Assembly (NCBI GenBank): GCA_947175055.1
Contig: CAMWLJ010000034.1
Location: forward strand, 1-33,084
Reading direction: 5' to 3'
DNA length: 33,084 nt
Origin: an uncultured Lachnospiraceae bacterium
GTDB taxonomy: Bacteria > Bacillota > Clostridia > Lachnospirales > Lachnospiraceae
Of the stretch, positions 3,270 to 33,084 are shown in pieces. The notes under the pieces were generated by a model. The model was given only the letters and a program-made list of their open reading frames with translations. It was not told the DNA's origin and did no database searches. Within the stretch, counting starts at the first letter, position 1, and each line of letters opens with the position of its first letter. The translations under genes were made by a program, and so were the position numbers.

Positions 3270-3299
3270 AGAGCGTCAGATATGATCTGGCGCTCTTTG
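3270..3299 (+). terminator. Terminator between aspS and the convergent AraC gene
   Basis: An 11-bp stem (agagcgtcaga with tctggcgctct, one wobble) with a 5-nt loop, followed by TTTGAT. It lies 10 nt after the aspS stop, between convergent genes, and may serve both strands. Confidence 0.75.
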
Positions 3300-3328
3300 A
3301 TATATCTTATATGACAAAAAGCAATATA

Positions 3329-4168
3329 TTACGATACAGGCGGCCGATGCGCCTGTCTGTAATCTGCGGGAGAGATCCCGTATTTTTTTTTGAACTGAAT
3401 GTAGAAACTTTGCCGGGAACCCATACCGATCACGGTATCTATTTCACCGATGCTGATGTCGGAATGGGTAAGCAGGTTTTTGGCTGCTTCAAGGCGCAGG
3501 GAAGTCAGATACTGCCAGATAGTATTGCCAGTGCACTTTTTGAAGATACGTTCCATGTAAGTGGGGTTCAGATTGACATGCTCTGCTATCTCGGCAACGG
3601 AACGGATCTTGCTGTAATGGTATTGGATATAGAGTTTGATCTGCCTGATATAGTCAATCCGGTTGGTATCATACTGCGTGAAAAGGCGGGGAATATCCAT
3701 CAGCAGTTTGGCCGTCGCACATGTAAGATAGAAGCTGCTTTCTTCGTTGCAGAAGATTTCGTAAAGATTAAGCAGGTCAGCATAAATACTGCGGCCGTCA
3801 GGCAGGACCCGGGCAGCAGTAAAAAGAGACCAGAAGCGCTGGGCGGCAGGATCTTTGTGAAGAAGTATATCTGCATCTGCCAGGCCGATGATTCCCTCCT
3901 GCATGGTGAAGGAAGCACCCAGCACGGTACAGGGAGTGTCCGGATGAAAAATTTTACGGTGAGGCAGACTGGAATCCAGGACCAGCAAGTTCCTGCACGA
4001 TAAGTCATAGGGGACATCATTGACCAGATAAGTGCATGAGCCCTCGACGATATAATTAAGTTCCAGCCATCCATGGGCATGAGGTGACATGGAATAGTGC
4101 TTCCAATCGGAATTGATATAGGCATTGTCCGGGTTAAAGACCAGACCAGATAAATTCGTTGTTTTCAT
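3329..4168 (-). CDS. AraC-family transcriptional regulator
   Basis: Cytoplasmic regulator of 279 aa. Residues ~1-100 form an AraC-type cupin sensor half (MSPHAHGWLELNYIVEGSC, then a second beta segment around LLVLDSSLPHRKIF). Residues ~180-275 form the two helix-turn-helix units: AEIAEHVNLNPTYMERIFKK, then IGEIDTVIGMGSRQSFYIQF, ending in the classic KKYGISPADYR. The gene is divergent from an aldo/keto reductase gene, with 146 bp between the starts holding a pair of repeated GCAAC/TTGCA sites, so it probably controls that gene and itself. The cupin suggests a small sugar or related ligand, which is not identifiable here. No clear Shine-Dalgarno sequence precedes the ATG. Confidence 0.92.
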   Translation of the reverse strand: MKTTNLSGLVFNPDNAYINSDWKHYSMSPHAHGWLELNYIVEGSCTYLVNDVPYDLSCRNLLVLDSSLPHRKIFHPDTPCTVLGASFTMQEGIIGLADADILLHKDPAAQRFWSLFTAARVLPDGRSIYADLLNLYEIFCNEESSFYLTCATAKLLMDIPRLFTQYDTNRIDYIRQIKLYIQYHYSKIRSVAEIAEHVNLNPTYMERIFKKCTGNTIWQYLTSLRLEAAKNLLTHSDISIGEIDTVIGMGSRQSFYIQFKKKYGISPADYRQAHRPPVS

Positions 4169-4198
4169 AGTGTCTTATTATAAAGGATAATGTTAAAA

Positions 4199-4290
4199 AT
4201 AGCAACTTTTGTTTGCATGATAAGTTGGGAAAAATGCTGGTTTTTGGAGTATAAAATTAATATAATATAGCAACAGTATTTGCAATATGA
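4199..4290. promoter_or_regulatory. Divergent control region with two copies of an AraC-type candidate operator
   Basis: ATAGCAAC followed by TTTGCA occurs at 4199-4217 and again at 4267-4284, exactly 68 bp apart in the same orientation; each copy has GCAA/TTGC dyad character. A possible promoter for the reductase, TTGGGA (4225-4230) with TATAAAAT (4250-4257), lies between them. Paired direct repeats bracketing a promoter are a common arrangement for AraC-family regulators. That the neighbouring regulator binds here is inference. Confidence 0.5.
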
Positions 4291-4314
4291 TCATAAAAAG
4301 AGAGGAGAATTACA

Positions 4315-5319
4315 ATGTATCAAGCTGAGAAAACACGATATGATTCAGGAATGATCTATAACAGATGCGGCAGAAGTGGTCTTCTGCTTCCGGCTTTTTC
4401 TCTGGGAATGTGGCATAATTTCGGGTCGGTTGACAGTATGGAGAATATGAAAAAAATACTGTTCACGGCGTTTGATAACGGGATTACTCATTTTGACCTG
4501 GCGAACAACTATGGGCCGGTATATGGGAGTGCGGAAGAAAACATGGGGCGGATCTTGCGGTCCGATTTGCTGCCTTACAGGGACGAGCTGGTGATATCCA
4601 CCAAGGCAGGATATGATATGTGGCAAGGTCCCTATGGAAACTGGGGATCGAAGAAATATCTGACTGCAAGTCTGGATCAGAGCCTGAAAAGAATGGGGCT
4701 TGATTATGTGGACATTTATTATCATCACCGTCCCGATCCTGAGACGCCCTTGGAGGAGACTATGATGGCGCTTGATCTGCTGGTGCGTCAGGGGAAAGCA
4801 CTCTATGTGGGAATCTCCAATTATAATAAAGAGCAGACGAAGCAGGCCTACAGGATTCTCCAGGAGTTAAAAACGCCGTTTATCATACATCAGGTTTCGT
4901 ACTCCATGCTAAACCGATGGATCGAAGAGGACGGACTGAAAGAGTATCTGTACGGGAAGGGAATCGGCTGTATCGCGTTCAGTCCTCTGCAGCAGGGGAT
5001 TCTGACGGGAAAATATCTGACAGGGATTCCGAAAGACTCCAGGATCGGGCAGCACAAAAGTCCTTATCTGCATGAAAGTGATCTGGATCAAGGGATGCTG
5101 CATAAGGTACAGGCACTCCATGAAATTGCGGAAGAAAGAGGACAGTCTCTGACCCAGATGGCACTGGCATGGCTCTTGCGGGATGATAAGGTCACATCGG
5201 TATTGATCGGTGCGAGCAGGCCTCAGCAGATCCTGGAAAATATCAAGGCGCTGGATCACACCTCCTTCAGTGGGGAAGAACTGGCGAGGATCGATGCGAT
5301 CGTTTATGGGGGAGCATGA
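4315..5319 (+). CDS. Aldo/keto reductase, YghZ/L-glyceraldehyde-3-phosphate reductase-like
   Basis: NADPH-dependent aldehyde or ketone reductase with a TIM-barrel fold, 334 aa. The catalytic tetrad is visible: Asp61 and Tyr66 (FDLANNYG), Lys97 (ISTKAGYD) and His138 (YYHHRPD). The C-terminal cofactor segment SVLIGASRPQQILEN is also present. Overall it most resembles the AKR14/YghZ group, which reduces L-glyceraldehyde 3-phosphate and methylglyoxal, but the true substrate is unknown. The start is supported by AGGAG at 4303-4307, 7 nt upstream. It is divergent from the AraC regulator and followed after ~210 bp by a sugar ABC operon in the same direction, which suggests, but does not prove, a role in the same carbohydrate pathway. 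Confidence 0.9.
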   Translation: MYQAEKTRYDSGMIYNRCGRSGLLLPAFSLGMWHNFGSVDSMENMKKILFTAFDNGITHFDLANNYGPVYGSAEENMGRILRSDLLPYRDELVISTKAGYDMWQGPYGNWGSKKYLTASLDQSLKRMGLDYVDIYYHHRPDPETPLEETMMALDLLVRQGKALYVGISNYNKEQTKQAYRILQELKTPFIIHQVSYSMLNRWIEEDGLKEYLYGKGIGCIAFSPLQQGILTGKYLTGIPKDSRIGQHKSPYLHESDLDQGMLHKVQALHEIAEERGQSLTQMALAWLLRDDKVTSVLIGASRPQQILENIKALDHTSFSGEELARIDAIVYGGA

Positions 5320-5435
5320 GAAGAATATTTATGCTTATGCACGGATATTCCATTTGGAACACGTTCTATCCATGGTTTTTGCGAATGAGGGCGGGTATAC
5401 TGACAGCATGATACACAAAACGAACGCGTACATAA

Positions 5436-5517
5436 GCAAAACGCAAAATTTTCAATCGCGAGATTTGTGTCTGCGCGTTGCTTGCCACAAACTCGATATG
5501 CGCAAAAAGCAGCGCAG
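5436..5517 (+). promoter_or_regulatory. Structured leader of the sugar transport operon with two alternative hairpins
   Basis: The 212-bp gap before the binding-protein gene carries overlapping inverted repeats. One pairs 5436-5445 (GCAAaaCGCA) with 5472-5481 (TGCGcgTTGC). The other pairs 5471-5483 (CTGCGC, GT bulge, TGCTT) with 5507-5517 (AAGCAGCGCAG) and ends 4 nt before the GGAGG ribosome site. Both use 5471-5483, so they cannot form together. A weak -10-like TATACT is at 5396-5401. Regulation is inferred from pairing only. Confidence 0.4.
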
Positions 5518-5531
5518 AAATGGAGGTAATT

Positions 5532-6932
5532 ATGAAAAGAAGAATTGCAGCTTTGATGCTTGGCATGGTGGTGATGGCAGTTTCTTTGACAGGGTGTGGA
5601 AAGGCAGATAAAGCGCCTGCAGCACAGCCGGAAAAGACGGCGGAGGAAAGTGCATCTGCGGAAGAAAGTGTACAGGTGGAGGATAGTACACAGGCAGAGG
5701 ACAGTGCACAGTCTGCAGAAGACGGTAGTGTGGGAAGTGACAAGGAAGCAGAGATCACGATCTATACTTACTATTCGGAGGCGGCAAAAGTGACGATCGA
5801 TGCCGCTCTGCCTCAGATGCAGAAACTTTATCCGAATGTTACATTCCATATTGAGCATAGGACGGATGCGGACGGTTCCGTACTCCGTACCAGGGCAGCG
5901 GTCGGAGAACTGCCGGAGATCATGGAACTGACAGGTGCGTTAACGGAGACCTTTGTGCAGTCGGATGATATCCTGCCGTTGGACGATGCGATAGAACGCA
6001 CAGGGTTTATGGATAAGTTTATTCCCGGCGCGTTGGACGGAAAGCAGTTCGCGGACGGACACTATTACGCGATCGGCCCATCTATTCCCGAGAATGCCAT
6101 GTTCTATTATAACAAGGCGGTTTTTGAGGAATTGGGATTGAGCGCTCCGAAGAATTATGATGAATTTAAGAATGTTATACAGACTCTGAAAGATGCCGGG
6201 AAAATACCGTTGGCGCTTTTTGGACAGGAGCAGTGGCCGGGACTGCAGATGTATGATCTTGCGGTGATCGCAGAGGGCAATGTGGAAGGAATAGGCGCGC
6301 TGGAAAAGGAGAATATCATTACATCCGACGAGGCTTATCTGAGAGCGGCGGAGAAATTACAGGAGCTGGTACAGATGGGGCTGATCGGAAGCGGCGCTTT
6401 CAGTACCAACAGTGCGCAGGCGATGGAGAATGTGAAACTTGGAAATGCCGGCATGTATTTCTGCGGAGCATGGTATCTGACCGACTGTGCGGAATATGGA
6501 GATAACATTGATTTCTTTGATTACAATCCCTTTGCGGACGCCGGAAAAGAAGAGGAACTGCGTTGGTATAAATCCGGCGGTAAGGCGGCGGCAGGCGGCT
6601 ACGGGGTCAGCGCAAACTGTGAAGATCCCGATCTGATCAAAGAGATAGCACTTCAATTTTCCATAGAGAAGACAAGAGCGGCGACGAAGGCAACTTCCGC
6701 GATCAACCTGCTGAGTGAGGATGTACAGCCTGACCAGCCCAGGAGCGAATCTTTTGAACGGTATGCGACAAGTGTGACAAGTTACGAGAATATGTCTAAG
6801 TACGGATGGGCTTTGGAGAGTCCGGAACTCTATACAGTTCTTCAGTCCTCTACTGAGAAACTGCTTACCGGAACTGTTGAACCGGAAGCATACATTGCGG
6901 AACTCGACCAACTGATTTCCGAGATTGAATAG
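5532..6932 (+). CDS. ABC transporter sugar-binding lipoprotein
   Basis: Extracellular solute-binding protein of the family 1 (MalE/UgpB-like) type, 466 aa from ATG 5532, which has GGAGG at 5522-5526 five nt upstream. It begins with a lipoprotein signal peptide (MKRRIAALMLGMVVM) and lipobox LTGC, so Cys22 would be lipid-anchored. A low-complexity acidic Glu/Ser/Ala tether (~28-70) follows, and the mature domain starts near ITIYTYYS. Typical family 1 segments include ENAMFYYNKAVFEELGL and GNAGMYFCGAWYLTD. It delivers its ligand to the two permeases downstream. The ligand is probably an oligosaccharide or other sugar, not deducible here. A hairpin just after the stop may keep its expression above that of the permeases. 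Confidence 0.93.
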   Translation: MKRRIAALMLGMVVMAVSLTGCGKADKAPAAQPEKTAEESASAEESVQVEDSTQAEDSAQSAEDGSVGSDKEAEITIYTYYSEAAKVTIDAALPQMQKLYPNVTFHIEHRTDADGSVLRTRAAVGELPEIMELTGALTETFVQSDDILPLDDAIERTGFMDKFIPGALDGKQFADGHYYAIGPSIPENAMFYYNKAVFEELGLSAPKNYDEFKNVIQTLKDAGKIPLALFGQEQWPGLQMYDLAVIAEGNVEGIGALEKENIITSDEAYLRAAEKLQELVQMGLIGSGAFSTNSAQAMENVKLGNAGMYFCGAWYLTDCAEYGDNIDFFDYNPFADAGKEEELRWYKSGGKAAAGGYGVSANCEDPDLIKEIALQFSIEKTRAATKATSAINLLSEDVQPDQPRSESFERYATSVTSYENMSKYGWALESPELYTVLQSSTEKLLTGTVEPEAYIAELDQLISEIE

Positions 6933-6939
6933 AAGGAGG

Positions 6940-6969
6940 GAGGGTGGATGTGATCAGACAACCACCCTC
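6940..6969 (+). terminator. Intercistronic hairpin, probably a leaky terminator or mRNA stabiliser
   Basis: A perfect 8-bp stem (GAGGGTGG with CCACCCTC) around a 14-nt loop, 7 nt after the binding-protein stop and followed by TTTATG. Such hairpins are common between binding-protein and permease genes, where they give excess binding protein. The weak T-run argues against full termination. Confidence 0.55.
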
Positions 6970-7007
6970 TTTATGTGTCTATATGATTTGGAAAGGCAGG
7001 TGTCTGG

Positions 7008-7892
7008 ATGAATATTCTATTTCAACGAAACAAAAGAGCGCTGATCGTTTTTATGGCGCCATTGATCATGATCTTTATGGTGATCATCATCATTCCATTG
7101 GGGCATGCTTTTGTGATGAGCTTTACCGAATGGGATGGTGTGAATGAAGCTGCGTTCACGGGACTCACTAATTATAAGAAACTGTTTACCTCCCCGGATC
7201 TTGTGATCTCCTTGAAAAACAGCGCGATATTTTCAGTGTTTCTGACGGTTTATCAGCTGGGTATAGGGTTACTGTTTGCTTTTATCCTCGTAAACAGTAA
7301 AATAAAAGGAAAAAAATTTTTTAAGGACGCTTTTTTTCTGCCGCAAGTGCTTTCGGTGTCTGTCGTAGCGCAATTGTGGATCTCTGTCTATCATGGAGAT
7401 TTCGGATTGATCAATCAGTTGGCAGCAGCGCTTGGGCTGGAATGGCGGCAGCAATGGCTGAGTGAGCCTGTTAAGGGGATCATAGCCATCGTGGCGGCAG
7501 AATCGTGGAAAGGTATGGGATATCATATGTTGATCCTGTATGCAGCCATGCATAATGTGCCGAAAGTATATTATGAAGCGTCCACTATTGACGGGGCAAG
7601 TGCCTGGCAGCAATTCAGAAATATCACGATTCCGTTGATCGCACCGACTTTAAAGGCATGCTTTATCATGGCATTTACATTTGGATTTCGTGCTTTTGAG
7701 CAGATTTTTATCATGACGAAAGGCGGACCGGGGAATTATACATATACGTTGTCGATCATGTTGTATAAATCGCTGTTCGGCATGCAGAAATACGGATACG
7801 CCAATGCAGTCGCCATGCTTATTGTCGTGATCTGTGTTGCAATCATGCTCATTGTGGAAAGGGTAACAAAAAATATGCAGGTGGAATATTAA
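7008..7892 (+). CDS. ABC sugar transporter permease (MsmF/UgpA-like)
   Basis: Inner-membrane permease of the MalF superfamily, carbohydrate uptake type 1, 294 aa. There are six predicted membrane segments, the first at ~10-32 (FMAPLIMIFMVIIIIPLGHA). The EAA loop that docks on the ATPase is visible at YYEASTIDGASAWQQFRNIT followed by IPLIAPTL. The FIMTKGGPGNYTYTL stretch near the C-terminus is typical of this subgroup. A Shine-Dalgarno-like AGGCAGG lies 7 nt before ATG 7008. It pairs with the permease 13 nt downstream. No ATPase gene lies in the operon; as in many Firmicutes, a shared MsmX/MsmK-type ATPase elsewhere probably energises uptake. Confidence 0.94.
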   Translation: MNILFQRNKRALIVFMAPLIMIFMVIIIIPLGHAFVMSFTEWDGVNEAAFTGLTNYKKLFTSPDLVISLKNSAIFSVFLTVYQLGIGLLFAFILVNSKIKGKKFFKDAFFLPQVLSVSVVAQLWISVYHGDFGLINQLAAALGLEWRQQWLSEPVKGIIAIVAAESWKGMGYHMLILYAAMHNVPKVYYEASTIDGASAWQQFRNITIPLIAPTLKACFIMAFTFGFRAFEQIFIMTKGGPGNYTYTLSIMLYKSLFGMQKYGYANAVAMLIVVICVAIMLIVERVTKNMQVEY

Positions 7893-7905
7893 GGAGGGCA
7901 GCGGC

Positions 7906-8736
7906 ATGACGAAAAGAAAGATCGGAAAAACACTTTTGTATGGATTACTGGGAATCTATGCCGTGATCTCACTGTATCCGCTGGTGTGGATGGCTTTTTA
8001 TTCCCTGAAGAGCAACGAAGAGATCTTCGTGACAAACCCTTTCGGGCCGCCGCTGAAGCCGCTGCCTGGTAATTATTACCGGGCAGCGACAGAATTTAAT
8101 ATTCTGGTCTATTTTAAGAACAGTATATTGATCTCCGCAGCGGCTTTATTCATAGGGATCATGTGTGCGCTGATGTTTACCTATGTAGTGGCCAGAGTTA
8201 AGACCAGGACGACTGACAGTCTGCGCTCTATCGTTATCTTGGGCATGTTCATTCCTATTCAGGCAGTGATGACACCGCTCGTTGTGATGGTAAAAAGCCT
8301 GCATCTGACAAATACACATTGGGCGTTGATCATTCCCTATGCGGCGCTTAGTTTTCCCTTTGCGGTGATGGTGCTTTATGGGTTTTATGCCAGCCTGCCG
8401 ATCGAGTTGGAAGAATCAGCCTATATTGAGGGTGCAAGTTTTTATCAGGCTTATTTCAAGGTCATTCTGCCGCAGATGAAATCGGTGATCATGGTTCTGT
8501 TGATCTATCAATTCATGTCAAATTGGAATGAGTTCAGTCTTGCGCTTGTATTGATCACAAAAGATGCCTTAAAAACGCTGCCTTTGGGACTCGTAGCATT
8601 TACGGGGCAGTTTTCCACGGACTGGGGACCGGTGGGGGCATCACTGGTAATGGCCAGTCTGCCTGTTATTTTACTGTACATCTTTTTCAGTGATGAGGTG
8701 GGGGATGCAATGGTATTATCCGGTATGAAAAACTGA
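7906..8736 (+). CDS. ABC sugar transporter permease (MsmG/UgpE-like)
   Basis: Second permease of the importer, MalG superfamily, 276 aa. It shows the N-terminal segment LLYGLLGIYAVISLYPLVWM, further membrane helices, and the EAA loop ELEESAYIEGASFYQAYFKV followed by ILPQMKSV. The typical LPLGLVAFTGQF segment comes near the end. AGGAGG at 7892-7897 overlaps the end of the preceding gene and is 8 nt from ATG 7906, so the two permeases are probably translationally linked. It would form the heterodimeric channel with the 7008-7892 product and receive substrate from the lipoprotein. Confidence 0.94.
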   Translation: MTKRKIGKTLLYGLLGIYAVISLYPLVWMAFYSLKSNEEIFVTNPFGPPLKPLPGNYYRAATEFNILVYFKNSILISAAALFIGIMCALMFTYVVARVKTRTTDSLRSIVILGMFIPIQAVMTPLVVMVKSLHLTNTHWALIIPYAALSFPFAVMVLYGFYASLPIELEESAYIEGASFYQAYFKVILPQMKSVIMVLLIYQFMSNWNEFSLALVLITKDALKTLPLGLVAFTGQFSTDWGPVGASLVMASLPVILLYIFFSDEVGDAMVLSGMKN

Positions 8737-8795
8737 TCGACGGGAAACGGATGTAAGATTAAGACAGCTATGTAAAAGGTGGAGGATACGGCAGA

Positions 8796-10583
8796 ATGAT
8801 GAATTGGAGAAAAAAGTGGAATTCGGTTTCTTTATCAAAGCGAATTGGTTTTTCATTTATTGTTCTCTGTACCCTCCTGGTGTGTGGTGTCACGCTCGTG
8901 GTCAACGTGACCTATCGCAGGCTGATGGATGAGCAGTTGCGGGAGAGGACCGCATATGAAAACCAGCTGATGGTCCAACAGCTTGAGCGGCTGTCGGAGA
9001 GTGTTAACAGCTGCTGTAACAATGTCATACTGAATCTGAATGTAGGGTTCCGTCAATATCCAACCGTGCCGGAATTTACAGGCTATTCCACGGCGGAGGT
9101 CAGCCGGATGTTTGTAAACGGATTGATCAGTAACCTGTTGCTGTTTGGTGAAGTGGAAAGGATCTCGGTGGTGCTGAGAACGGGCGCACTGTACAGCGGA
9201 AGCAGGGCTAATATGCGGGAGAGTTTCGGAAACGATCAGGATGTTTACGAATTTCTGCGGGAGGAAGGCGTCGGAACGAAGGGTTGCTGGTACTATGGAC
9301 TGGATAAGCGTTTTGGCAGTCAACTTGGCAGTATTTCTTATGTTAAGGGAATGAGATATATTGACAGAAATGAGGATGTGGGTTACGTGATCATCTGTAT
9401 TGCCCCGGAGTTTCTGGAGAGCATGATGAAATTCGGAAAGAGTAACGGCTATATACAATATGCTCTAATGGGAGAAGACGGATATATGCTGCTTCCTGAT
9501 GAGATGAAGTTTCTGGAGGAAGAAGGAATACTGTCACCAGCCGATATCTTGCAAAGACAGGAGAAAGAATCATTTCCGATCGAACAGCAGGGCAGGCAGT
9601 ATTATTGTGAAAAAATGAGTCTCGCCGGAAATGGAGGATGGGTACTCATATCTATCATAGACCGGGATATCGTACAAAAAGGTGTCAATCTTATTACTGG
9701 AAGTGTTTTATTGGCCGGGTTGTTTCTGACATTGGCGGCGGATATTCTGATTCTTCTGATGGCAGAGAGGATCAGCCGTCCGATCAGGCAGATGGCAAGG
9801 CATATGGTAAGTTTTTCCGATCATCTGCCGGAAACGCTGCCGCCTTATCAAGGGCGTGACGAGATTGGTATTCTGACTGAGAATTTTAACACTATGATAA
9901 CCAAGAACAGGGAGCTGATCGAGAAAGTGTATGAACAGCAACGACAGAAGAGACATTTTGAGCTTGCATTATTACAGGCCCAGATCAAACCGCACTTCCT
10001 GTACAATTCGTTGGACAGTGCGTATTGCCTGGTGGCGGATCGGAAGGAAGAACAGGCTCAGAAGATCTTGAAACTGTTAGCGGACTATTACCGCAGTGTG
10101 CTTAACCGTGGAGAAGAATGGATATCCGTAGCGAAAGAACTTGAGGCAGTGGAGAAGTATATCCAGATACAGCAGATAAGATACAGGGGATTATTTACTT
10201 ATGAAATAGACGTGGCTTATGAGATCATGCAGATGAGGATACCGAAATTAACATTGCAGCCATTGGTGGAGAATGCTATTTATCATGGTATAAAACCCCT
10301 GGGGAAAGATGGGCGGATACGGATCACCGGAGAAATGGACGGGAATTGGGCTTACATTAAGGTGGCGGACAATGGGATCGGTTTTGCGGAAGAGAGCTTT
10401 TATCGGGTGTTGGAGCAGGGAAGGGCAGACAGTGACGGTGATAGTCTGGGACTTAAGAACAGTGCAAGGAGGATCGCCATGTTCTATAACAGTGACAGCG
10501 GACTTTCTTTGGAGAAAGGAGAGAACGGGGAGACTGTTCTTATAATACGTATCTGTCTTGGAACGGAGGATATAGATGTATAA
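8796..10583 (+). CDS. YesM-type sensor histidine kinase
   Basis: Membrane sensor of 595 aa. It has an N-terminal membrane helix (~17-38), a large extracellular sensing region (~40-293), a second helix (~297-322), a HAMP linker (AERISRPIRQMARHMVSFSD), a His_kinase domain with phospho-acceptor His400 in QIKPHFLYNSLDSA, and a C-terminal ATPase domain with LTLQPLVENAIYHGI and VADNGIGF. This is the LytS/YesM class, which usually senses extracellular sugars or the loaded binding protein. GGAGG (8781-8785) lies 10 nt before ATG 8796. It overlaps the response-regulator gene by 8 bp and lies 59 bp after the permease gene, so it probably controls the transport operon it sits in. Confidence 0.94.
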   Translation: MMNWRKKWNSVSLSKRIGFSFIVLCTLLVCGVTLVVNVTYRRLMDEQLRERTAYENQLMVQQLERLSESVNSCCNNVILNLNVGFRQYPTVPEFTGYSTAEVSRMFVNGLISNLLLFGEVERISVVLRTGALYSGSRANMRESFGNDQDVYEFLREEGVGTKGCWYYGLDKRFGSQLGSISYVKGMRYIDRNEDVGYVIICIAPEFLESMMKFGKSNGYIQYALMGEDGYMLLPDEMKFLEEEGILSPADILQRQEKESFPIEQQGRQYYCEKMSLAGNGGWVLISIIDRDIVQKGVNLITGSVLLAGLFLTLAADILILLMAERISRPIRQMARHMVSFSDHLPETLPPYQGRDEIGILTENFNTMITKNRELIEKVYEQQRQKRHFELALLQAQIKPHFLYNSLDSAYCLVADRKEEQAQKILKLLADYYRSVLNRGEEWISVAKELEAVEKYIQIQQIRYRGLFTYEIDVAYEIMQMRIPKLTLQPLVENAIYHGIKPLGKDGRIRITGEMDGNWAYIKVADNGIGFAEESFYRVLEQGRADSDGDSLGLKNSARRIAMFYNSDSGLSLEKGENGETVLIIRICLGTEDIDV

Positions 10584-12126
10584 GGTACTGCTGGTAGACG
10601 ACGAGGATATATTTTTAACTCATTTATACAGAACGGTGGAATGGAAAGAGTTTGATTGTCTTGTCTGTGGCAGTGCGCGGGACGGACGGGAAGCTTTACA
10701 GGCGGTGGAGGAGCTGAATCCGGATATTGTTTTTATGGATATAAATCTGCCGCATAAGAATGGCTTGGAAGTCTGCGATATCATCCGTGAATGGAAAAAT
10801 GCTCCCCATGTCATCATATTGACTGCGCACGGGGAATTTAGCTTTGCCCATAAAGCGATCAGGATGGGAATATTTGACTATCTGTTGAAGCCGTTTGACA
10901 AAAAAGAGCTGACGGAAGCGCTGCTTAAATGTATAGAAGATATACGGATGAAGAAAGGGCAGAGGGAAATTGAGGAAAGGCTGCAGACAAGAGAAGCGGA
11001 AGCTTATTTTAAAGATCTGCTGGATCTGGACGGCGCCGAGACCGGAAAGAAGATCCAGCTCTCCAGAGAAACGCGGTTTCTGGCGGCGGTGGTGCAACTG
11101 GAATATCTTGAACATGAAAATCTTATGAGAATCTCCCGGGAAATAAAGGAAGGGTTAGATCGGGATGATAAGATCAAGAGCTATCTGATCGGACTGCGCA
11201 ACGGGGTATTTACGGTCGTGCATCTACTGACGCGGGATTTGGATATTAAGCGCATGAAAAGCATGTGGGCAGAAGTCCTGTCGAGAATATGCGATCAAGA
11301 AGAGGGCAGGGATTGTGTGGCGCTAGGAAAGCTCGTAGATGATACGGATGCTATCGCCGTGAGCTATCAGCAGGCATTAACGGCGCTGGAGAATCGAAGC
11401 AGAACAGGTACGTCTGTCATTGCGTATGAAGATGTGGAGGACCTGCACGTACCGGAGACGATGTTCAGCCAGCAGGACATGAATCTTTTGATCAAATTGT
11501 TTGAAAACGGCCAGTATGAAAGCGCCGATAAAGCGATCGAAAAGATCTTTGGACTTTCGGAGGAAAGGATGCTTTCTTTCCAGTATGTAGTCTCAATCTA
11601 TTATTCGATCGTAGTGCAGATCCTTGGACATTTTGCCTGCGAAGGATCGCGTGAAGCTTATACGGCGGTGGATCAGAAGGAATTGTTGAAAGAACTGGGA
11701 ATCTGTACGAACACACAAGAGATCACGGAGATCCTTAAGAATAATATTCATGAAGTTTTCAGTGAATGTATTTCGATCCAGCTTCCCAAAAAAGGGGATA
11801 TACTTGCCAATAAAATAGAGAAATATCTGTGTGTCCATTATCGGCAGTCCAACTTGTCGGTGGAGCAGATCGCCAGGGAGCTTTTTTTTGAAAACAGCTA
11901 TGTACGAAGAGTTTTTAAGTCGCAGACCGGGAAGACCATTGTGCAGCGGTTAGAAGAGATCCGGATGGAGAAAGCAAAGGAACTGCTGGCAGATATCGAT
12001 GTCCGTCACAGTGATGTGGCGGAAGCAGTAGGCTATGCGGATCCCTTTTATTTCAGTAAGAGATTTAAGCTATATAGTGGGATGTCTCCTACGGAATATC
12101 AGGCACGGTTCCACAGACATAAGTAG
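10576..12126 (+). CDS. YesN-type response regulator with AraC output domain
   Basis: Cytoplasmic transcription factor of 516 aa. The receiver domain covers residues 1-~120, with acidic pocket Asp8/Asp9, phospho-acceptor Asp55 (IVFMDINLPHKNG), Thr83 and Lys105 (FDYLLKPFDKKEL). A middle region (~130-400) typical of YesN proteins follows. The final ~100 residues are an AraC-type double helix-turn-helix (LSVEQIARELFFENSYVRRV; VAEAVGYADPFYFSKRFKLY; SGMSPTEYQ). ATG 10576 lies inside the end of the kinase gene and has GGAGG just upstream, so the pair is translationally coupled. It is the expected partner of the YesM-like kinase and likely activates the sugar-uptake operon. Confidence 0.95.
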   Translation: MYKVLLVDDEDIFLTHLYRTVEWKEFDCLVCGSARDGREALQAVEELNPDIVFMDINLPHKNGLEVCDIIREWKNAPHVIILTAHGEFSFAHKAIRMGIFDYLLKPFDKKELTEALLKCIEDIRMKKGQREIEERLQTREAEAYFKDLLDLDGAETGKKIQLSRETRFLAAVVQLEYLEHENLMRISREIKEGLDRDDKIKSYLIGLRNGVFTVVHLLTRDLDIKRMKSMWAEVLSRICDQEEGRDCVALGKLVDDTDAIAVSYQQALTALENRSRTGTSVIAYEDVEDLHVPETMFSQQDMNLLIKLFENGQYESADKAIEKIFGLSEERMLSFQYVVSIYYSIVVQILGHFACEGSREAYTAVDQKELLKELGICTNTQEITEILKNNIHEVFSECISIQLPKKGDILANKIEKYLCVHYRQSNLSVEQIARELFFENSYVRRVFKSQTGKTIVQRLEEIRMEKAKELLADIDVRHSDVAEAVGYADPFYFSKRFKLYSGMSPTEYQARFHRHK

Positions 12127-12153
12127 GAAACACGCTACGGAATGGAGGAAAGA

Positions 12154-12678
12154 ATGATAGTAGATGTTTTGAGAAACAGTGAAAAGTACTTGTCCATGCA
12201 TCCGTATTTTCCGGTCGCATATGAGTATTTAAAGAAAGTGAGCGCAATGGATCCTGAAAGCCTGCCGGTCAATGAGGAGGTAGAGCTGGTAAAGGATCAT
12301 GTCTTTGCAACAGTATGGAAAGACAACAGCAAGCCAAAGGAGAAGGTGCGGTGGGAAGCACATGAGACGTTTATTGACTGGCAGATCCTGCTGAAAGGGC
12401 AGGAGATCATATACTGGACGCCAAAGGATACGCTGCAGGTAAAGGATGACTCGCGTGCCGGGGAGGATATTATTTTCTTTCATGAGCCAGCGGACTGCAG
12501 CGCGGCCTATCTGTCTGCGGGGTATTATGTCATCGTCTTTCCGGATGATGCCCATCAGCCGGATTGTGATTGGGATGGAGAACATGAGAGGATCAAGGTC
12601 ATGATCAAGATTCGGATGTGCAGCAGGGTGCAGGGCATCGTGAATAGTAACGAACTGTTACATTTTTATAAAAGATAA
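12154..12678 (+). CDS. YhcH/YjgK/YiaL (TabA) family protein
   Basis: Small cytoplasmic double-stranded beta-helix protein, 174 aa. The start is ATG 12154, with GGAGG at 12144-12148 five nt upstream; an ATG at 12142 overlaps that site and is unlikely. Family hallmarks are HETFIDWQILLKGQEIIYW, the FFHEPAD segment, and YYVIVFPDDAHQPDC with a conserved His, followed by KVMIKI. Members are found in sialic-acid, gulonate and other sugar-acid gene sets and in biofilm regulation; they are thought to act on sugar derivatives (isomerase- or epimerase-like), but the biochemistry is not settled. Its place as last gene of the transporter/two-component operon suggests it handles the imported sugar. No kinase or glycosidase accompanies it. 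Confidence 0.85.
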   Translation: MIVDVLRNSEKYLSMHPYFPVAYEYLKKVSAMDPESLPVNEEVELVKDHVFATVWKDNSKPKEKVRWEAHETFIDWQILLKGQEIIYWTPKDTLQVKDDSRAGEDIIFFHEPADCSAAYLSAGYYVIVFPDDAHQPDCDWDGEHERIKVMIKIRMCSRVQGIVNSNELLHFYKR

Positions 12679-12783
12679 AAAATTAGATATTGAAATTTGT
12701 CATTTGTCGTGGTATGCTTCTATATACTTTATCTATCGGACATGTTCCTTATGCATTTGAGGTTTATTTTGTTAACCTCTTGC

Positions 12784-12812
12784 TTGAAACTTTGTCCGGC
12801 TTGTTATATGAT
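12784..12812 (+). promoter_or_regulatory. Candidate sigma-A promoter for the small membrane protein gene
   Basis: TTGAAA (12784-12789), a 17-bp spacer and TATGAT (12807-12812). It lies in the 264-bp AT-rich gap after the sugar operon and would give a leader of about 125 nt before ATG 12943. I see no gene in the gap. Confidence 0.55.
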
Positions 12813-12942
12813 TAAGATATATTTTTCGACAAAACAGTTCCGGGAAGGATCTGCGGCCAGAAGCGATGTCTCATATGTCTGCGGATCGAAGCGGTAGGGT
12901 CTGCCGGGTTCAGGACCGGGTCGAATACAGGAGGTATCATAA

Positions 12943-13437
12943 ATGAGTGAAACATATGTAGAATGTCTGGTGGCCAGGAAACCTTCGGTGCTCCTGTCTT
13001 TTTTGAAAATACTGTTGATCATGCTGACGGTGGTATTCCTTATGGTAGGCGGTGTGTTCCTTCCGGGTCTGGTGGTGGCGATCATTACGGGAATAGGTGC
13101 CTATTTTGCCACCATGAACGCGAATATTGAGTATGAGTACCTGTACCTGGACAGGGAGATTAGTGTGGATAAGGTGATGGCGAAAAGCCGCCGGAAGAAG
13201 GCCAATACCTTTTCGGTGGATAAGATGGAAGTGCTTGCGCCGCTGAATTCCCATAGGCTGGATTCTTACAGGAATCGTAATTCCAAGACGCTGGATTACA
13301 GCTCTGGTGTTGCTGCGCAGCCGGAGAAGAGATATATGATGGTCTGTGAAGGAGATCTGAAGGTTATTTTCGAGCCAAACGCGGAGATGGTGAAAGCGAT
13401 CCAGAGCATTGCACCGCGCAAGGTGTTTACAGATTAA
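12943..13437 (+). CDS. Small membrane protein of unknown function
   Basis: 164 aa. AGGAGG lies just upstream of ATG 12943. After a short N-terminus (MSETYVECLVARKP) come two closely spaced hydrophobic segments (~16-38 and ~41-60; LIMLTVVFLMVGGVFLPGLV then GIGAYFATMNANIEYEY). A ~100-residue soluble part follows, with a basic patch (KSRRKKANTFSVDKMEVLAP). The pattern of two helices followed by a small beta-rich domain resembles PH-like membrane proteins of unknown function in Lachnospiraceae (perhaps the DUF6106 group, which I cannot verify). It has its own candidate promoter and a terminator after it, so it is probably monocistronic. Neighbours give no functional hint. Confidence 0.8.
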   Translation: MSETYVECLVARKPSVLLSFLKILLIMLTVVFLMVGGVFLPGLVVAIITGIGAYFATMNANIEYEYLYLDREISVDKVMAKSRRKKANTFSVDKMEVLAPLNSHRLDSYRNRNSKTLDYSSGVAAQPEKRYMMVCEGDLKVIFEPNAEMVKAIQSIAPRKVFTD

Positions 13438-13527
13438 TTATTTATAGAATATTTGTGACCTCTTTTCATGCAGGGTCTGTGTTAAGACGGTGTCGGACAC
13501 GGATGCGCATGTGATCATGGAAAAGAA

Positions 13528-13562
13528 ATACTGTCAGTTAGATTAACTGGCAGTATTCTTTA
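13528..13562 (+). terminator. Terminator before guaB
   Basis: A 13-bp stem (atactgtcagtta with taactggcagtat, one wobble) with a 3-nt loop, then TCTTTACAT. The flanks (aaagaa and tcttt) extend the pairing. Confidence 0.75.
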
Positions 13563-13590
13563 CATAAATGTAACTATCGATACTGCTTAA

Positions 13591-15069
<1,479 letters not shown>

Positions 15070-28297: not shown

Positions 28298-28336
28298 AGT
28301 TGTACTAAGGTGCTTGAAGGACAGCACACAAGTATA
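28298..28336 (+). repeat. Degenerate second copy of hairpin unit 1
   Basis: Bases 28298-28334 repeat 28141-28176 with a single inserted T (AGTTGTACTAAGGTGCT, then GAAGGACAGCACACAAGTA). The 3' arm then breaks off (AGTATATAAAG), so only the inner stem and part of the outer stem remain. It lies about 50 nt before the tex start. Confidence 0.7.
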
Positions 28337-28387
28337 TAAAGGAAAAGCAAAATCATATCGTTAAGGAAGAAAGGCACAAGAGCAAGG

Positions 28388-30784
28388 ATGGACATTATTT
28401 TAAAACTCAAGGATGAACTGAAAGTGGAGAAATGGCAGGTGGAAGCTGCCGTGAAGCTGATTGATGAAGGGAATACCATTCCTTTTATCTCCAGATACCG
28501 TAAGGAAGCGACGGGGTCCCTCAATGATGAGGTGCTGCGTGACCTGCATGAGCGGCTTACTTATCTGCGGAATCTGGAAGAGAAGAAGGAACAGGTTTTA
28601 AAAAGCATAGAGGAACAGGGAAAACTGACCGAGGAGCTGCAGGCGAAGATCGTGGCGGCGGAAACCATGGTGGTGGTGGAGGACCTTTACAGGCCTTACC
28701 GTCCGAAGCGTAAGACCAGGGCCAGCGTGGCCAAGGAGAAAGGATTGGACGGCCTGGCGCAGTTTATTCTGGCGCAGGAGACGACGGCTCCCATTGAGGA
28801 GGAAGCGGCCAAATATGTCCACGAGGATGAAGATGCCGCCAAGACAGTGGCTACCGTGGAAGATGCCATTCAGGGCGCTAAGGATATCATCGCCGAGATG
28901 ATCTCGGACGAGGCGGATTATCGTATCTATATCCGTAATATCACGATAGAGGAAGGTAAGCTGACAAGCGTTGCCAAGGATGAGAAGGCTGAGAGCGTGT
29001 ACGAGATGTATTATCAGTACGAAGAACCGGTGAAAAAGGTTGCCGGCCACAGGACGCTTGCCCTGAACCGCGGGGAGAATGAGAAATTCCTGGTGGTGAA
29101 GGTGGAGGCGCCGGTGGAGCGTATCTTACAGTACCTGCGCACGAAGGTGATCACCAGGGACAATGAGGTCACTTCCCCGATCCTGGAGGATGTGATCGAA
29201 GACAGCTACAGCAGGCTGATCGCACCGGCCATCGAGCGGGAGATCCGCAACGATCTGACGGAAAAGGCGGAGGACGGCGCGATTTCCGTATTTGGCAAGA
29301 ACTTAGAGCAGCTTCTGCTGCAGCCGCCCATCGCCGGCAAGGTGGTTCTGGGCTGGGATCCGGCTTTCCGTACCGGCTGTAAACTGGCGGTGGTGGACGA
29401 GACGGGCAAAGTGCTTGACACGAAAGTTATCTATCCCACTGCACCGCAGAACAAGGTGACAGAAGCCAAGGCAGAGCTTAAGAGATTGATCAGGAAATAT
29501 AATGTATCCCTGATTTCCGTCGGCAACGGCACGGCTTCCAGAGAATCCGAGCAGGTGATCGTGGAACTGTTGAAAGAACTGGATACGCCGGTACAGTATG
29601 TGATCGTCAACGAGGCGGGCGCGTCGGTGTACTCTGCGAGTAAGCTGGCCACAGAGGAGTTCCCCAACTTCGACGTGGGACAGAGGAGCGCCGCTTCTAT
29701 TGCCAGAAGGCTGCAGGATCCGCTGGCGGAACTGGTGAAGATCGATCCGAAATCCATCGGTGTGGGCCAGTATCAGCACGATATGAACCAGAAGAAACTG
29801 AGCGAGGCGCTGCACGGCGTGGTGGAAGACAGTGTGAATAAAGTAGGCGTGGACTTGAATACCGCTTCTGCCTCCCTTCTGGAATATGTCTCCGGCGTGA
29901 GCAAGGTGGTCGCCAGAAATATCGTGGATTACCGGGAGACTAACGGCAGATTTTCCAACCGGGCGCAGCTGCTTAAGGTGGCCAAGCTGGGGCCGAAGGC
30001 TTATGAACAGTGTGCGGGATTTATGCGCATTGCGGACGGCGACAATCCGCTGGATGCCACCAGTGTGCATCCGGAGTCATACGAGGCGGCAAAGAAGCTG
30101 CTTGACAGGATGGGCCTGACCATGGAAGACGTGAAGGAAGCCCAGAAAAAGGCGGCCGCGCAGAAGGCGTCGGGTAAGAAGGCAGCAGCAGCGCCGGTTA
30201 AAGAAAAGAAAAAACCGCAGCCGAAGGTGGTCATCCGCAATACCAACACCGCCATGGGCAAGGCGTTGGCGGCTGCTATGGGCGGCATGACGCTGGAAGG
30301 GGAAGATACTGACAGGAATAATAACGGCAATGCCGGCAGGAAGGCGGCTAAAGGCGGCGATAAGCCGGATATGACGGTCAGCAGCTTAGAGAAGAAGATC
30401 AAGGATAAAAAGAAGCTGGCGGAGGAACTTGGCATCGGTGAGATCACGCTGACCGATATTCTCAAAGAACTGGAGAAACCGGCCAGAGATCCTCGTGACG
30501 ATATGCCGGCGCCGATCCTGCGCAGCGATGTGCTGGATATGAAGGACTTAAAACCGGGTATGATCTTGAAAGGCACGGTGCGGAACGTGATAGACTTCGG
30601 GGTGTTTGTGGATATCGGCGTGCACCAGGACGGACTTGTACATATTTCGCAGATCACCAATCGCTATATCAAGCATCCGCTGGAGGCAGTCAGTGTGGGC
30701 GACGTGGTGGATGTGCAGGTGCTTACGGTGGATGTGGCCAAGAAGAGAATCGGACTGACTATGAAGATCAAGCAGGAAGCCTGA
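28388..30784 (+). CDS. tex: Tex family RNA-binding transcription accessory protein
   Basis: Cytoplasmic nucleic-acid-binding protein of 798 aa, a little longer than typical Tex (~720-780). In order: N-terminal Tex helices (EKWQVEAAVKLIDEGNTIPF, SRYRKEATGSLNDEVLRDLH), a YqgF-like RNase H fold (VVLGWDPAFRTGCKLAVVDE), helix-hairpin-helix units (GVDLNTASASLLEYVSGVSK), a Lys/Ala-rich linker, and a C-terminal S1 domain from ~722 (ILKGTVRNVIDFGVFVDIGV, QDGLVHISQ). The linker (~580-690) is about 100 residues of charged sequence (KKAAAAPVKEKKKPQPK; RNNNGNAGRKAAKGGDK). Tex proteins affect transcription and toxin expression in several bacteria. The ribosome site before ATG 28388 is weak (AGCAAGG), and the leader contains the hairpin array. 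Confidence 0.95.
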   Translation: MDIILKLKDELKVEKWQVEAAVKLIDEGNTIPFISRYRKEATGSLNDEVLRDLHERLTYLRNLEEKKEQVLKSIEEQGKLTEELQAKIVAAETMVVVEDLYRPYRPKRKTRASVAKEKGLDGLAQFILAQETTAPIEEEAAKYVHEDEDAAKTVATVEDAIQGAKDIIAEMISDEADYRIYIRNITIEEGKLTSVAKDEKAESVYEMYYQYEEPVKKVAGHRTLALNRGENEKFLVVKVEAPVERILQYLRTKVITRDNEVTSPILEDVIEDSYSRLIAPAIEREIRNDLTEKAEDGAISVFGKNLEQLLLQPPIAGKVVLGWDPAFRTGCKLAVVDETGKVLDTKVIYPTAPQNKVTEAKAELKRLIRKYNVSLISVGNGTASRESEQVIVELLKELDTPVQYVIVNEAGASVYSASKLATEEFPNFDVGQRSAASIARRLQDPLAELVKIDPKSIGVGQYQHDMNQKKLSEALHGVVEDSVNKVGVDLNTASASLLEYVSGVSKVVARNIVDYRETNGRFSNRAQLLKVAKLGPKAYEQCAGFMRIADGDNPLDATSVHPESYEAAKKLLDRMGLTMEDVKEAQKKAAAQKASGKKAAAAPVKEKKKPQPKVVIRNTNTAMGKALAAAMGGMTLEGEDTDRNNNGNAGRKAAKGGDKPDMTVSSLEKKIKDKKKLAEELGIGEITLTDILKELEKPARDPRDDMPAPILRSDVLDMKDLKPGMILKGTVRNVIDFGVFVDIGVHQDGLVHISQITNRYIKHPLEAVSVGDVVDVQVLTVDVAKKRIGLTMKIKQEA

Positions 30785-30834
30785 GAACCGAGAAAGACGT
30801 TACATGATAATACGGGATATGGATGTTTAGGAAA

Positions 30835-30981
30835 GGGCTGTTGCAAAAGTAGATGAATAATCGCTACTGGCGCAATGGCCCCGTTTTTTTGTGTCTAAAA
30901 TCAGAAAAGCAGACTCCGAAGAGCCTGCCATCCGTGGTATAATAAGTTATGATTGGTAGTCGAAAATACCAGATTTTGTAA
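30835..30981 (+). mobile_element. Left-end remnant of an IS1182-like insertion sequence
   Basis: Starts with GGGCTGTTGCAAAAG, the kind of terminal repeat seen in IS1182-group elements. A hairpin follows (GGGC/GCCC, TTGC/GCAA and GTAG/CTAC nested, 30835-30881) with seven T, which would also stop transcription from tex. Next come an extended -10 promoter (TGGTATAAT, 30935-30943) and an ATG at 30949 opening only ten codons (MIGSRKYQIL) before a stop. The transposase body is missing here; a decayed one lies at 32619-32885. Confidence 0.5.
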
Positions 30982-31084
30982 CACCTCCATCTATAGTATT
31001 ACAAATATAAATAGCGAAATAGGTTCTTGATAAAATATTAGTAGAGAATTAAAAATTAATTCCTGTGATAATAAAGATATTTCC

Positions 31085-31113
31085 TTATGAGATAACAACC
31101 ATTGTGTTATAAT
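31085..31113 (+). promoter_or_regulatory. Candidate promoter of the BREX relic/nuclease unit
   Basis: Extended -10 TGTTATAAT (TATAAT at 31108-31113), with a weak -35 (TTATGA, 31085-31090) at 17 bp. A purine-rich ribosome-site-like GTGAAAGG follows at 31121-31128. The surrounding 30982-31152 is AT-rich with no other recognisable content. Confidence 0.4.
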
Positions 31114-31152
31114 TAGGGCGGTGAAAGGAACAGGGTTATATAAGTGAATTAA

Positions 31153-31458
31153 ATGAAAGGCTACAATGTGTATCAGATATTTCTCGAAATATGTGATGAA
31201 AAGCGCATTATAAACGGTGCGCCTGCTATAGAAGATAAAGGAAAAAGATTACCTGTTGCAACAGATACAGCGTTTTGCAAATAACAAGACTTTTGTGGAA
31301 AGGATACAATACAAACCACATAACGCGGGGATGTGCTGATGCTCACTGGAATAGGAGAAGTATTTCCATTTATGAGAATCCATTCATTATTGGAAGTATT
31401 ACAGCCAGAGTTCGGATATACTGAGATGAATATCATAAGAAGAGTTGGAGGAGAATAG
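31153..31458 (+). pseudogene. Decayed DUF1788/BrxB gene (BREX defence component)
   Basis: About 100 codons spread over two frames read as a DUF1788 (BrxB) protein. From 31153: YNVYQIFLEICDEKRIING, then EDK. After a frameshift near 31235: KEKDYLLQQIQRFANN, then KTFVERIQYKPHNAG. After a compensating shift near 31329: DVLMLTGIGEVFPFMRIHSL, then LEVLQPEF, ending NIIRRVGGE with TAG at 31456-31458. The LTGxGEVFPFMRxHxLLxxLQ block is the family's most recognisable part. Intact members are about 190-200 aa, so the N-terminal half is gone, and the jump from LQPEF to the tail implies an internal deletion. BrxB is a core BREX phage-defence protein. The stop codon abuts the ATG of the nuclease gene. Confidence 0.7.
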
Positions 31459-32553
31459 ATGGATAGCAAAAATGAAATAATAGAAACGAATAAGTCTTTA
31501 GATATGTTGATTGCAGATTCCATTGAACTAATCCAATATGCACGACAGATTACTGCAAAACAGGTTAATCTGGTGCAGTTAATGACATACTATTCACTTG
31601 GAAAATGGATTGTTGAAGAACAGCAGGAAGGGAAAGAACGGGCTAAATATGGAAAGCAGGTTTTGAAAAAATTATCAGAAAGTCTTACAAAAGAATTTGG
31701 AAGAGGATTTTCGGAAACAAACTTGGAGTATGCTAGAAAATTTTATTTCACATATGCAGACCGAATATCTCAAACAGTGTTTGAGGAATTTGCAGTTAAA
31801 AAATCCCAAACAGTGTTTGAGGAATTGGATAAGGAACAACCTTTTCTTGTTTCATGGTCGCATTATTTGCAGCTAATGCGGATAGAAAATGCGGATGAAC
31901 GAAAATTTTATGAGATAGAATCAGCAAAATCCGGCTGGGGAATACGTACATTACAAAGACAGTATAATTCGAGTCTATATGAGAGGTTGGCGCTGAGCAG
32001 AGATAAGGATGAGGTGATGAGGCTAGCTAAAGAGGGCAATGTCATTACAAAACCGCAGGATATTGTGAAACAACCCACTGTGCTTGAATTTCTTGGGTTA
32101 GATGAAAAAGCAAAATATGTGGAGTCTGATTTGGAAACTGCAATTATCAATAAACTGCAAAAATTTTTGTTAGAGTTAGGCAAGGGCTACTTATTTGAAG
32201 CAAGGCAGAAGCGGTTTACATTCAAAGAAGATAGCTTTTATGTGGATCTTGTGTTTTATAACAGGCTTTTACGTTGCTACGTGCTGATAGATTTGAAGAT
32301 TGACAAACTTACACATCAAGATTTGGGGCAGATGTTGATGTATGTGCATTACTATGACAGATATGAGAAGCTGCCCGAGGAAAATCCAACGGTAGGAATT
32401 TTGTTATGTAAGGAAAAGGATGATGCCCTTGTAGAAATTACATTACCGGATGATGCCAATATTTATGCATCAGAGTATCAGTTGTATTTGCCTGATAAGC
32501 AGGAGCTGCAGAAAAAATTGAAGGAATGGATAGAGGAAGGAACGGATTTGTAG
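31459..32553 (+). CDS. DUF1016/YhcG-type PD-(D/E)XK nuclease
   Basis: 364 aa. The N-terminal DUF1016_N helical domain covers ~15-180 (LIQYARQITAKQVNLVQLMT, YYSLGKWIVEEQQEGKERAK, GFSETNLEYARKFYFTY, SWSHYLQLMRIENADERKFY). The C-terminal nuclease domain has the catalytic pattern Asp263 (SFYVDLVFYN) and Asp278-Leu-Lys280 (CYVLIDLK), then the family segment LTHQDLGQMLMYVHYYDRYE. GGAGGAG at 31447-31453 supports the start. The ATG directly follows the stop of the BrxB pseudogene, so it was probably cotranscribed with it. YhcG-like proteins accompany restriction and other defence loci; their role is unsettled. The frame is intact while its neighbours are decayed. An internal 24-bp direct repeat duplicates SQTVFEE. 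Confidence 0.92.
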   Translation: MDSKNEIIETNKSLDMLIADSIELIQYARQITAKQVNLVQLMTYYSLGKWIVEEQQEGKERAKYGKQVLKKLSESLTKEFGRGFSETNLEYARKFYFTYADRISQTVFEEFAVKKSQTVFEELDKEQPFLVSWSHYLQLMRIENADERKFYEIESAKSGWGIRTLQRQYNSSLYERLALSRDKDEVMRLAKEGNVITKPQDIVKQPTVLEFLGLDEKAKYVESDLETAIINKLQKFLLELGKGYLFEARQKRFTFKEDSFYVDLVFYNRLLRCYVLIDLKIDKLTHQDLGQMLMYVHYYDRYEKLPEENPTVGILLCKEKDDALVEITLPDDANIYASEYQLYLPDKQELQKKLKEWIEEGTDL

Positions 32554-32618
32554 ATAGTTTTATTGTAGACACAATTTTTAAAACATACTAAAAATGTTGC
32601 TACACTGTCGCAACAATT

Positions 32619-32885
32619 ATGTGGAGGGGAAATTACCCCAAGACTATGTTCAAGATCCTGGCATATGCTTATTCACAAAATATCTATTCTTTGAGAAAGA
32701 TCGAAACCGCCTGCAGGCGTGAAATTAACTTTATGTGAGAAAGACTTTTCTATCAGATGGTAAAAAGGCTGGAACAGGCGGATGAACTGTCAAAGGAAAC
32801 GGTATTCATAGACGGGATAAAGTTAGAAGCGTTATTAAGGTACGCCCTAAATCCAGCAGATTTTCTTAAAATAGGAAAATACTAG
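32619..32885 (+). pseudogene. Decayed IS1182-family transposase
   Basis: From ATG 32619 the frame reads GNYPKTMFKILAYAYSQNIY then SLRKIETACRREINFM, the N-terminal segment of IS1182-type transposases, and stops at TGA 32736-32738. In the same frame, after an evident deletion, comes FYQMVKRLEQADELSKETVF then IDGIKLEA, the block holding the first catalytic Asp. Unrelated codons follow to TAG 32883-32885. The gene is far shorter than an intact transposase (~450-550 aa), so it is inactive. It may be the other part of the element whose left end is at 30835. Confidence 0.8.
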
Positions 32886-32911
32886 ACTTTTTGTTAGTAG
32901 AAATAGAAGAA

Positions 32912-32960
32912 GGGTATCGCTCAATCATCTGATTTGATGATTGAGCGACTGCCCTTTCTT
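32912..32960. terminator. Strong hairpin at the end of the IS relic
   Basis: TCGCTCAATCATC (32917-32929) pairs perfectly over 13 bp with GATGATTGAGCGA (32936-32948). GGG/CCC extends it beyond a small internal loop, and TTTCTT follows. It may end the IS and also serve the opposing minus-strand gene, whose stop codon lies within the stem. Confidence 0.7.
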
Positions 32961-33084
32961 GTATAGGTCACGGGAATCTGGTTATATTGAATTGTCAGGT
33001 TATATTCTGTATCCGGGTCAGCCGAAGTGCAGGAAAAGGCCAACAGCACATAATGATTGGCAGCTTCTATTCTTTGAAGGTGCG
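32921..33084 (-). CDS. 3' end of an unidentified minus-strand gene (starts beyond the window)
   Basis: An open minus-strand frame enters from the right edge and runs 53 codons to TGA (plus-strand 32921-32923). It reads HLQRIEAANHYVLLAFSCTS, then ADPDTEYNLTIQYNQIPVTY, then TRKGSRSIIKSDD. The composition looks protein-like, with beta-type alternation and a charged C-terminus, but I do not recognise a family. The stop lies inside the 13-bp terminator stem, so the last residues may have been created by joining to the IS end. The call could be chance, given the short length. Confidence 0.4.
   Translation of the reverse strand, partial: HLQRIEAANHYVLLAFSCTSADPDTEYNLTIQYNQIPVTYTRKGSRSIIKSDD

Follow-up and report, generated by a model that had tools for sequence, protein, structure and literature searches.

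An intact DUF1016 gene beside the remnant of a BREX locus in an uncultured Lachnospiraceae bacterium

Anatomy of the insertion

We analysed a window of 33,084 nucleotides (the whole stretch of DNA under study), which near its right end carries a remnant of brxB (31164-31424) followed by an intact gene for a DUF1016/YhcG-type PD-(D/E)XK nuclease of 364 aa (31459-32553). Both are on the forward strand, as are the other features of the insertion unless stated otherwise. They lie within a stretch (30801-32955) downstream of the large ORF 28388-30784, which we take to be a tex-like gene (Tex). A sister genome (G030, contig C106) matched the flanks of this stretch at 28326-30800 (97%) and 32956-33084 (93%), with 56 bp between the two. 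Because the flanks are only 56 bp apart there, 30801-32955 is, on this alignment, an insertion relative to G030, and G030 is the empty site.

The window shares its last 55 bp (33030-33084) with another contig of its genome, C194, which is itself collinear with G030. From this overlap and collinearity the two contigs are probably adjacent. We considered whether the draft assembly might have put non-adjacent pieces on one contig, as it consists of 225 contigs and is 80.9% complete, and insertion-sequence DNA is repetitive. Such an artefact is highly improbable, since both flanks agree with G030 and the contig continues into C194.

Assigned blocks on either side belong to one insertion sequence. 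Its left end, up to the start of the transposase gene, was found at 30832-30971 (90% identical to L157 in genome G050 over 30832-30951 and 85% to L160 in genome G037 over 30832-30971). Part of the N-terminal region of the transposase of the same insertion sequence occupies 32635-32830 (85-91% to L157 and L160), with an internal deletion near 32737. A palindromic repeat at 32903-32955, to which no strand was assigned, is the probable right end; it is repeated in several genomes of the genus and stops where the flank match to G030 starts. Stretches of 31 bases (30801-30831), 16 bases (30972-30987) and 72 bases (32831-32902) fall outside the assigned blocks. A 30-bp sequence (30804-30833) recurs several times in the window genome and in G030.

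Within the insertion, four blocks match a single locus in Lachnospiraceae A4 (KE159534.1) and a single one in genome G555, with order and strand preserved. The leftmost is the upstream (promoter) region of a BREX operon (30988-31115), identical at 112/128 positions to G555:511985-512112, which lies upstream of the regulator and brxA, and 89% identical to A4 over 31042-31115. It includes TGTTATAAT at 31105-31113, which resembles an extended -10 consensus. A promoter scan gave 5 sites against 7.9 in shuffles, i.e. no excess, and the 3 sites of a terminator scan (0.8 in shuffles) all lie on the minus strand. The brxB start region follows (31118-31163; 54/65 to G555:513084-513148 over 31118-31176), and between 31115 and 31118 a deletion has removed 971 bp (measured on G555) with the regulator and brxA. 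Next comes the brxB remnant, covering codons about 66-153, with about 155-170 bp of brxB missing before 31164.

The last of the four blocks is the DUF1016 unit. The 3' flank of the DUF1016 unit (32554-32632) is 86-89% identical to L049, L050, L054, L057, L059 and L088, with matches ending at 32629-32632. Downstream of the stop codon lies a 19-bp near-palindrome (32596-32614). In L144 (L144:1506) the identical sequence codes for a piece of the linker (VATLSQQ) in a different DUF1016 gene, and near copies occur in L145 (1506 and 1849).

The brxB remnant, its junction with DUF1016 and the intact islands

The initial annotation had read three reading-frame segments as a BrxB/DUF1788 protein, and profile searches agreed. 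Three window peptides, searched apart, matched the PADLOC BrxB profile PDLC02466 in order (profile positions 64-91, 98-121 and 124-152; E 1.6e-5, 0.0038 and 2.1e-7). The third also exceeded the cut-off of Pfam BrxB (PF08747; 31.6 bits against 26.8), and the first two were without a Pfam match. A search of the genome read BrxB across 31162-31416 (43.6 bits) with two internal TAA codons. At the DNA level, 31164-31424 was 90.6% identical to brxB of A4 (E 4e-100) and 91.7% to that of G555; such identity to intact brxB excludes a chance match.

Compared with A4, the remnant lacks 2 nt at 31235 and 1 nt at 31330. These two breaks compensate each other, as had been proposed together with deletions, and stretches of brxB are indeed missing, but there is a further 2-nt break at 31410, beside the junction. 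With these frame breaks and deletions the remnant holds no intact BrxB reading frame. The position from which the piece had been read, 31153, is not its original start; the brxB start region aligns from 31118/31140.

Homology to brxB runs to 31424, and homology to the DUF1016 unit of A4 begins at 31416. The two alignments thus overlap in a short microhomology (31416-31424), which, judged from the aligned DNA, marks the site of a deletion or recombination. With the closest DUF1016 relatives (87-92% identical), DNA homology sets in at 31416-31443. The stretch 31416-31458, with a ribosome site, is the nuclease gene's own leader: it matches the A4 leader at 37/41 positions, and the 3' part is found again in relatives whose upstream DNA is unrelated, with the end GGAGGAGAATAGATG, or a sequence close to it, occurring in close relatives of this kind. 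We therefore rejected an in-register fusion of brxB to DUF1016, as the leader belongs to DUF1016. The contact between a stop codon and the ATG, previously ascribed to the end of brxB, is likewise part of this leader.

In A4 the order is regulator, brxA, brxB, brxC, pglX, pglZ, brxL, a PDC-S54 gene and DUF1016, with extra genes inside, including a methyltransferase. We take a BREX type 1 system to be brxA, brxB, brxC, pglX, pglZ and brxL together; PADLOC profiles matched all six in A4. The window keeps only pieces of brxB and lacks the regulator-brxA stretch. In its genome (80.9% complete), brxC and pglZ were not found in searches run without a positive control, nor were pglX and brxL in searches that matched A4 and G555 as controls. 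The weak brxL match (22%, C-terminal part only, in an 817-aa frame) was read as Lon. By these searches, the window and its genome fall short of the six-gene set.

In G555, a one-contig genome, the corresponding island spans 26.9 kb between the 3' end of an EF-Tu gene and a repeat of the tuf tail. It contains a tyrosine integrase (PF00589), an actin-like protein, a NikA-like protein, a relaxase (PF03432), the brx set, a PDC-S54 relative, a trypsin-like protein and, by the right end, DUF1016. The tuf-tail repeats are at 504404-504466 and within 531124-531308. By its gene content and repeats, the G555 island is an integrative mobilizable element with a defence module. The window copy, in contrast, no longer has mobility genes or either end: no integrase, relaxase or attachment site is present in the assigned blocks of 30801-32955, and the locus is not at tuf, so that it would not itself be classed as such an element. 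Searches of the open-licence literature returned no paper on mobilizable BREX in Lachnospiraceae and none on EF-Tu as an insertion site of integrative and mobilizable elements, which is no proof of novelty.

The view of a decayed BREX locus holds, and in A4 and G555 BREX does lie upstream of a DUF1016 gene that is 94-95% identical to that of the window; the view of a gene fusion does not hold. On the intact islands DUF1016 lies further downstream, with 16,112 bp (G555) and 21,813 bp (A4) between the point where the relic's brxB stops and the DUF1016 leader. Among the intact loci compared, none had DUF1016 directly after brxB, the arrangement that the initial annotation had suggested looking for. 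In A4, in four other loci and in G555, brxB is followed by brxC, and DUF1016 as the direct follower was rejected for these loci.

The DUF1016 gene and its neighbourhoods in relatives

The gene itself is as it had been described, intact and full-length with a ribosome site. Its 364-aa frame is open, and the protein matched Pfam YhcG_C (PF06250, 175 bits) and DUF1016_N (PF17761, 129.6 bits), as well as the PADLOC candidate profile PDC-S02 (PDLC04807, E 3.5e-134). Residues D263, D278 and K280, which we take to be the PD-(D/E)XK motif residues, are invariant among 18 aligned proteins. The protein thus resembles the DUF1016/YhcG family in both domains (each over the cut-off), in length and in the motif. 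NCBIfam gave no match, and no solved structure is related to the protein by sequence (best E 0.46). The predicted structure has a mean pLDDT of 62 and is good only for about residues 11-170; values are around or below 50 from residue 191, leaving the nuclease half at low confidence. In the literature, 2715 PDC-S02 annotations are reported in rumen genomes (PMC13356809), DUF1016 is named in a figure legend on prophage neighbourhoods (PMC11341870), and a study of Proteus mirabilis mentions both DUF1016 and BREX, in passages that treat them separately (PMC8547009).

The linker between the two halves (window 31760-31860, residues ~100-131) differs greatly in length from one relative to another and contains a repeated unit (ISQTVFEEF..., SQTVFEEL...); L047 is without 12 residues here. 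A tandem-repeat finder reported nothing in the gene, the linker repeat included. The RNA of 31760-31860 folds better than shuffles (z -4.1), via palindromic repeats.

With the window DUF1016 protein we found 51 loci and fetched flanks of up to 8 kb, with at least 5 kb upstream in 38/51. Brx core genes, searched with queries from BREX loci like that of A4, were present within the fetched flanks of only two relatives (L050 and L083). A PDC-S54 gene alone was seen near L049 and, weakly, near L088, and a regulator fragment near L094. By comparison, the DNA of the element right end lay no more than 1.3 kb downstream of DUF1016, on the same strand, in 15/51 loci (L046, the source of the query DNA, included); three loci were too short and 33, among them L047, were without it. 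Right-end DNA located elsewhere than downstream of DUF1016 occurred only in L073 and L086. DUF1016 was the last ORF of at least 90 codons before the right-end DNA in 11 of the 15, with one ORF of 168-313 codons in between in L055, L063, L073 and L087. Its frame is open in 12 of the 15 and broken in L073, L087 and L088.

We ran PADLOC on selected upstream ORFs of nine of the 15 right-end loci (18 proteins of eight loci, plus A4). Defence-type matches were obtained in eight of the nine: BREX in L050, Gabija with a type III REase in L060, type I M and S in L087, PDC-M46A/B in L055, NsnA in L051, Thoeris in L073, and methyltransferases with a kinase in L053 and L054. Methyltransferase or kinase matches alone, as in the last two, are weak evidence of defence. 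The upstream ORFs of L046 gave only a weak LmuB match. A tuf tail stands between Thoeris and DUF1016 in L073, so this Thoeris may belong to a neighbouring element. In L051 an upstream relaxase is 85% identical to that of G555.

Several loci are wrecks of such elements. L063:4713-8299 is a shrunken one, in which tuf is followed by two relaxase remnants (74-76%, E 1e-7 and 6e-7), DUF1016, a 186-aa ORF and right-end DNA, and in L090 and L095 tuf is followed by DUF1016 fragments. A second BREX wreck was found in L083 (Bacterium D16-50, 610-14473): the start of the regulator is joined to brxL from codon 432, then comes a broken DUF1016, and tuf tails lie on both sides.

The nuclease had been taken for an accessory of BREX, co-inherited with brxB and left over after the core decayed. 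BREX does lie upstream of DUF1016 in A4 and G555, and L083 combines a BREX relic with a broken DUF1016, but 49 of the 51 relatives have no Brx core gene in the fetched flanks, other defence genes occupy the same place, and in many relatives DUF1016 follows unrelated upstream genes, the finding that was to count against the initial annotation. With right-end DNA by DUF1016 in 15/51, varied cargo and a Brx core near 2/51, we regard DUF1016 as more probably a gene of the element than an accessory of BREX; the relatives suggest a link to the end of the island rather than to BREX.

From the BREX side, a brxL search of 397 genomes of the family gave 56 matches, and we examined the windows of the best 34 of the 56 except that of G092 (n=33). 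DUF1016 homologues were present in three of them, against a rough background expectation of ~0.15 (210 matches in 194 genomes, 3.25 Mb each assumed). This excess favours an accessory role, but a general clustering of defence genes would also explain it, and only one of the three is close (G555, 95%), the other two being 42% and 28% identical. Taken with the neighbourhoods, an accessory nuclease left behind by BREX is an unlikely origin for the window gene. Distant DUF1016 homologues were also seen beside pglX or pglZ in other BREX loci (L169:16841-17365, L190:1797-2873 and L193:7736-8680).

Selection, allele exchange and the collapse of the island

The DUF1016 genes of the window and A4 are separated by 22, 6 and 90 changes at first, second and third codon positions (dN/dS 0.036). 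In the brxB remnant, substitutions relative to A4 are flat over the codon positions (6, 7, 6), as in a functionless gene, whereas the brxB genes of A4 and G092 differ mostly at third positions (24, 8, 71). Changes found only in the window DUF1016 numbered 3, 2 and 6, and the window lineage has thus seen few amino-acid changes. At positions 1 and 2 together there are 5/728 such changes in DUF1016 against 13/168 in the remnant; at the remnant's rate about 56 would be expected in the 728 sites (26 at the low end of the rate), a contrast that is indicative, as reference sets and counting rules differ and the pieces are assumed always to have been neighbours. This pattern fits the proposal that DUF1016 stayed open while the core decayed, but the silent sites suggest separate histories for DUF1016 and brxB.

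At third positions where A4 and G555 agree, the window differs at 65/323 in DUF1016 and at 3/83 in the brxB remnant (Fisher p 1e-4), so that joint inheritance of the two is improbable. The test is imperfect, since a similar gap appears between A4 and G555 (7/185 in brxB and 41/364 in DUF1016, p 0.004). Even so, it speaks against simple co-inheritance of the two pieces, and the differing silent divergence also weighs against an accessory inherited with brxB. In the tree, the window DUF1016 pairs with L047 (support 90 on all sites and 82 on third positions), and A4, L049 and G555 form a separate group (97). The flanks of L047 contain no Brx gene, and a special kinship of these flanks with the window was dropped: upstream they are unrelated, and downstream there is only a short match to a shared repeat. 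We read the tree and the silent sites as an exchange of DUF1016 alleles, or as recombination between two elements. An exchange between elements probably gave the locus its present allele, either before the collapse or in its course.

The same data could be taken to mean that illegitimate recombination in the insertion sequence brought together a free-standing DUF1016 and a BREX fragment that had not been linked before. In favour of this, the DNA upstream of the closest DUF1016 (L047) is unrelated, the window allele stands apart from the BREX-linked ones in the tree, and the junction is a short microhomology. We regard this origin as improbable, because order, strand, DUF1016 leader and 3' flank all match the intact islands and chance would have to reproduce them.

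We consider it fairly likely that the window holds a collapsed integrative mobilizable element of the A4/G555 kind, of a family targeting tuf and now stranded in a broken insertion sequence, in which DUF1016 survives as a gene. Three deletions or recombinations would have taken away the regulator with brxA, a piece of brxB, and the whole stretch between brxB codon ~153 and the DUF1016 leader. DUF1016 would have stood at or next to the right end of the element, where the upstream defence genes vary. It would now be translated from its own leader, with transcription possibly from the BREX operon promoter, about 345 bp upstream.

As its neighbours change and the gene is conserved, we infer that the DUF1016 protein may be a working PD-(D/E)XK nuclease that acts independently of BREX and, as a single gene, blocks incoming DNA. 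Relative to the family as a whole, it stands out by a linker of variable length with repeated units and by the element right-end DNA close downstream in 15/51 relatives. More tentatively, a family of mobilizable elements that target tuf in Lachnospiraceae could have DUF1016 as its fixed nuclease, with interchangeable upstream cargo (BREX, Gabija, restriction-modification and others). In this role DUF1016 might benefit the element itself, for instance by keeping competing DNA out, be exchanged between elements via the shared right end, and be kept on collapse at tuf (L063) or elsewhere (the window).

The explanation of a single-gene defence candidate such as DUF1016 is usually sought in the adjoining system. 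Here gene and neighbour are separable: near the element end, the nuclease is preceded by different systems, and it is intact in a locus that has lost BREX. If DUF1016 works alone, a common uncharacterised nuclease would become directly testable, and the element family would show how a single mobile chassis may have its defence modules exchanged.
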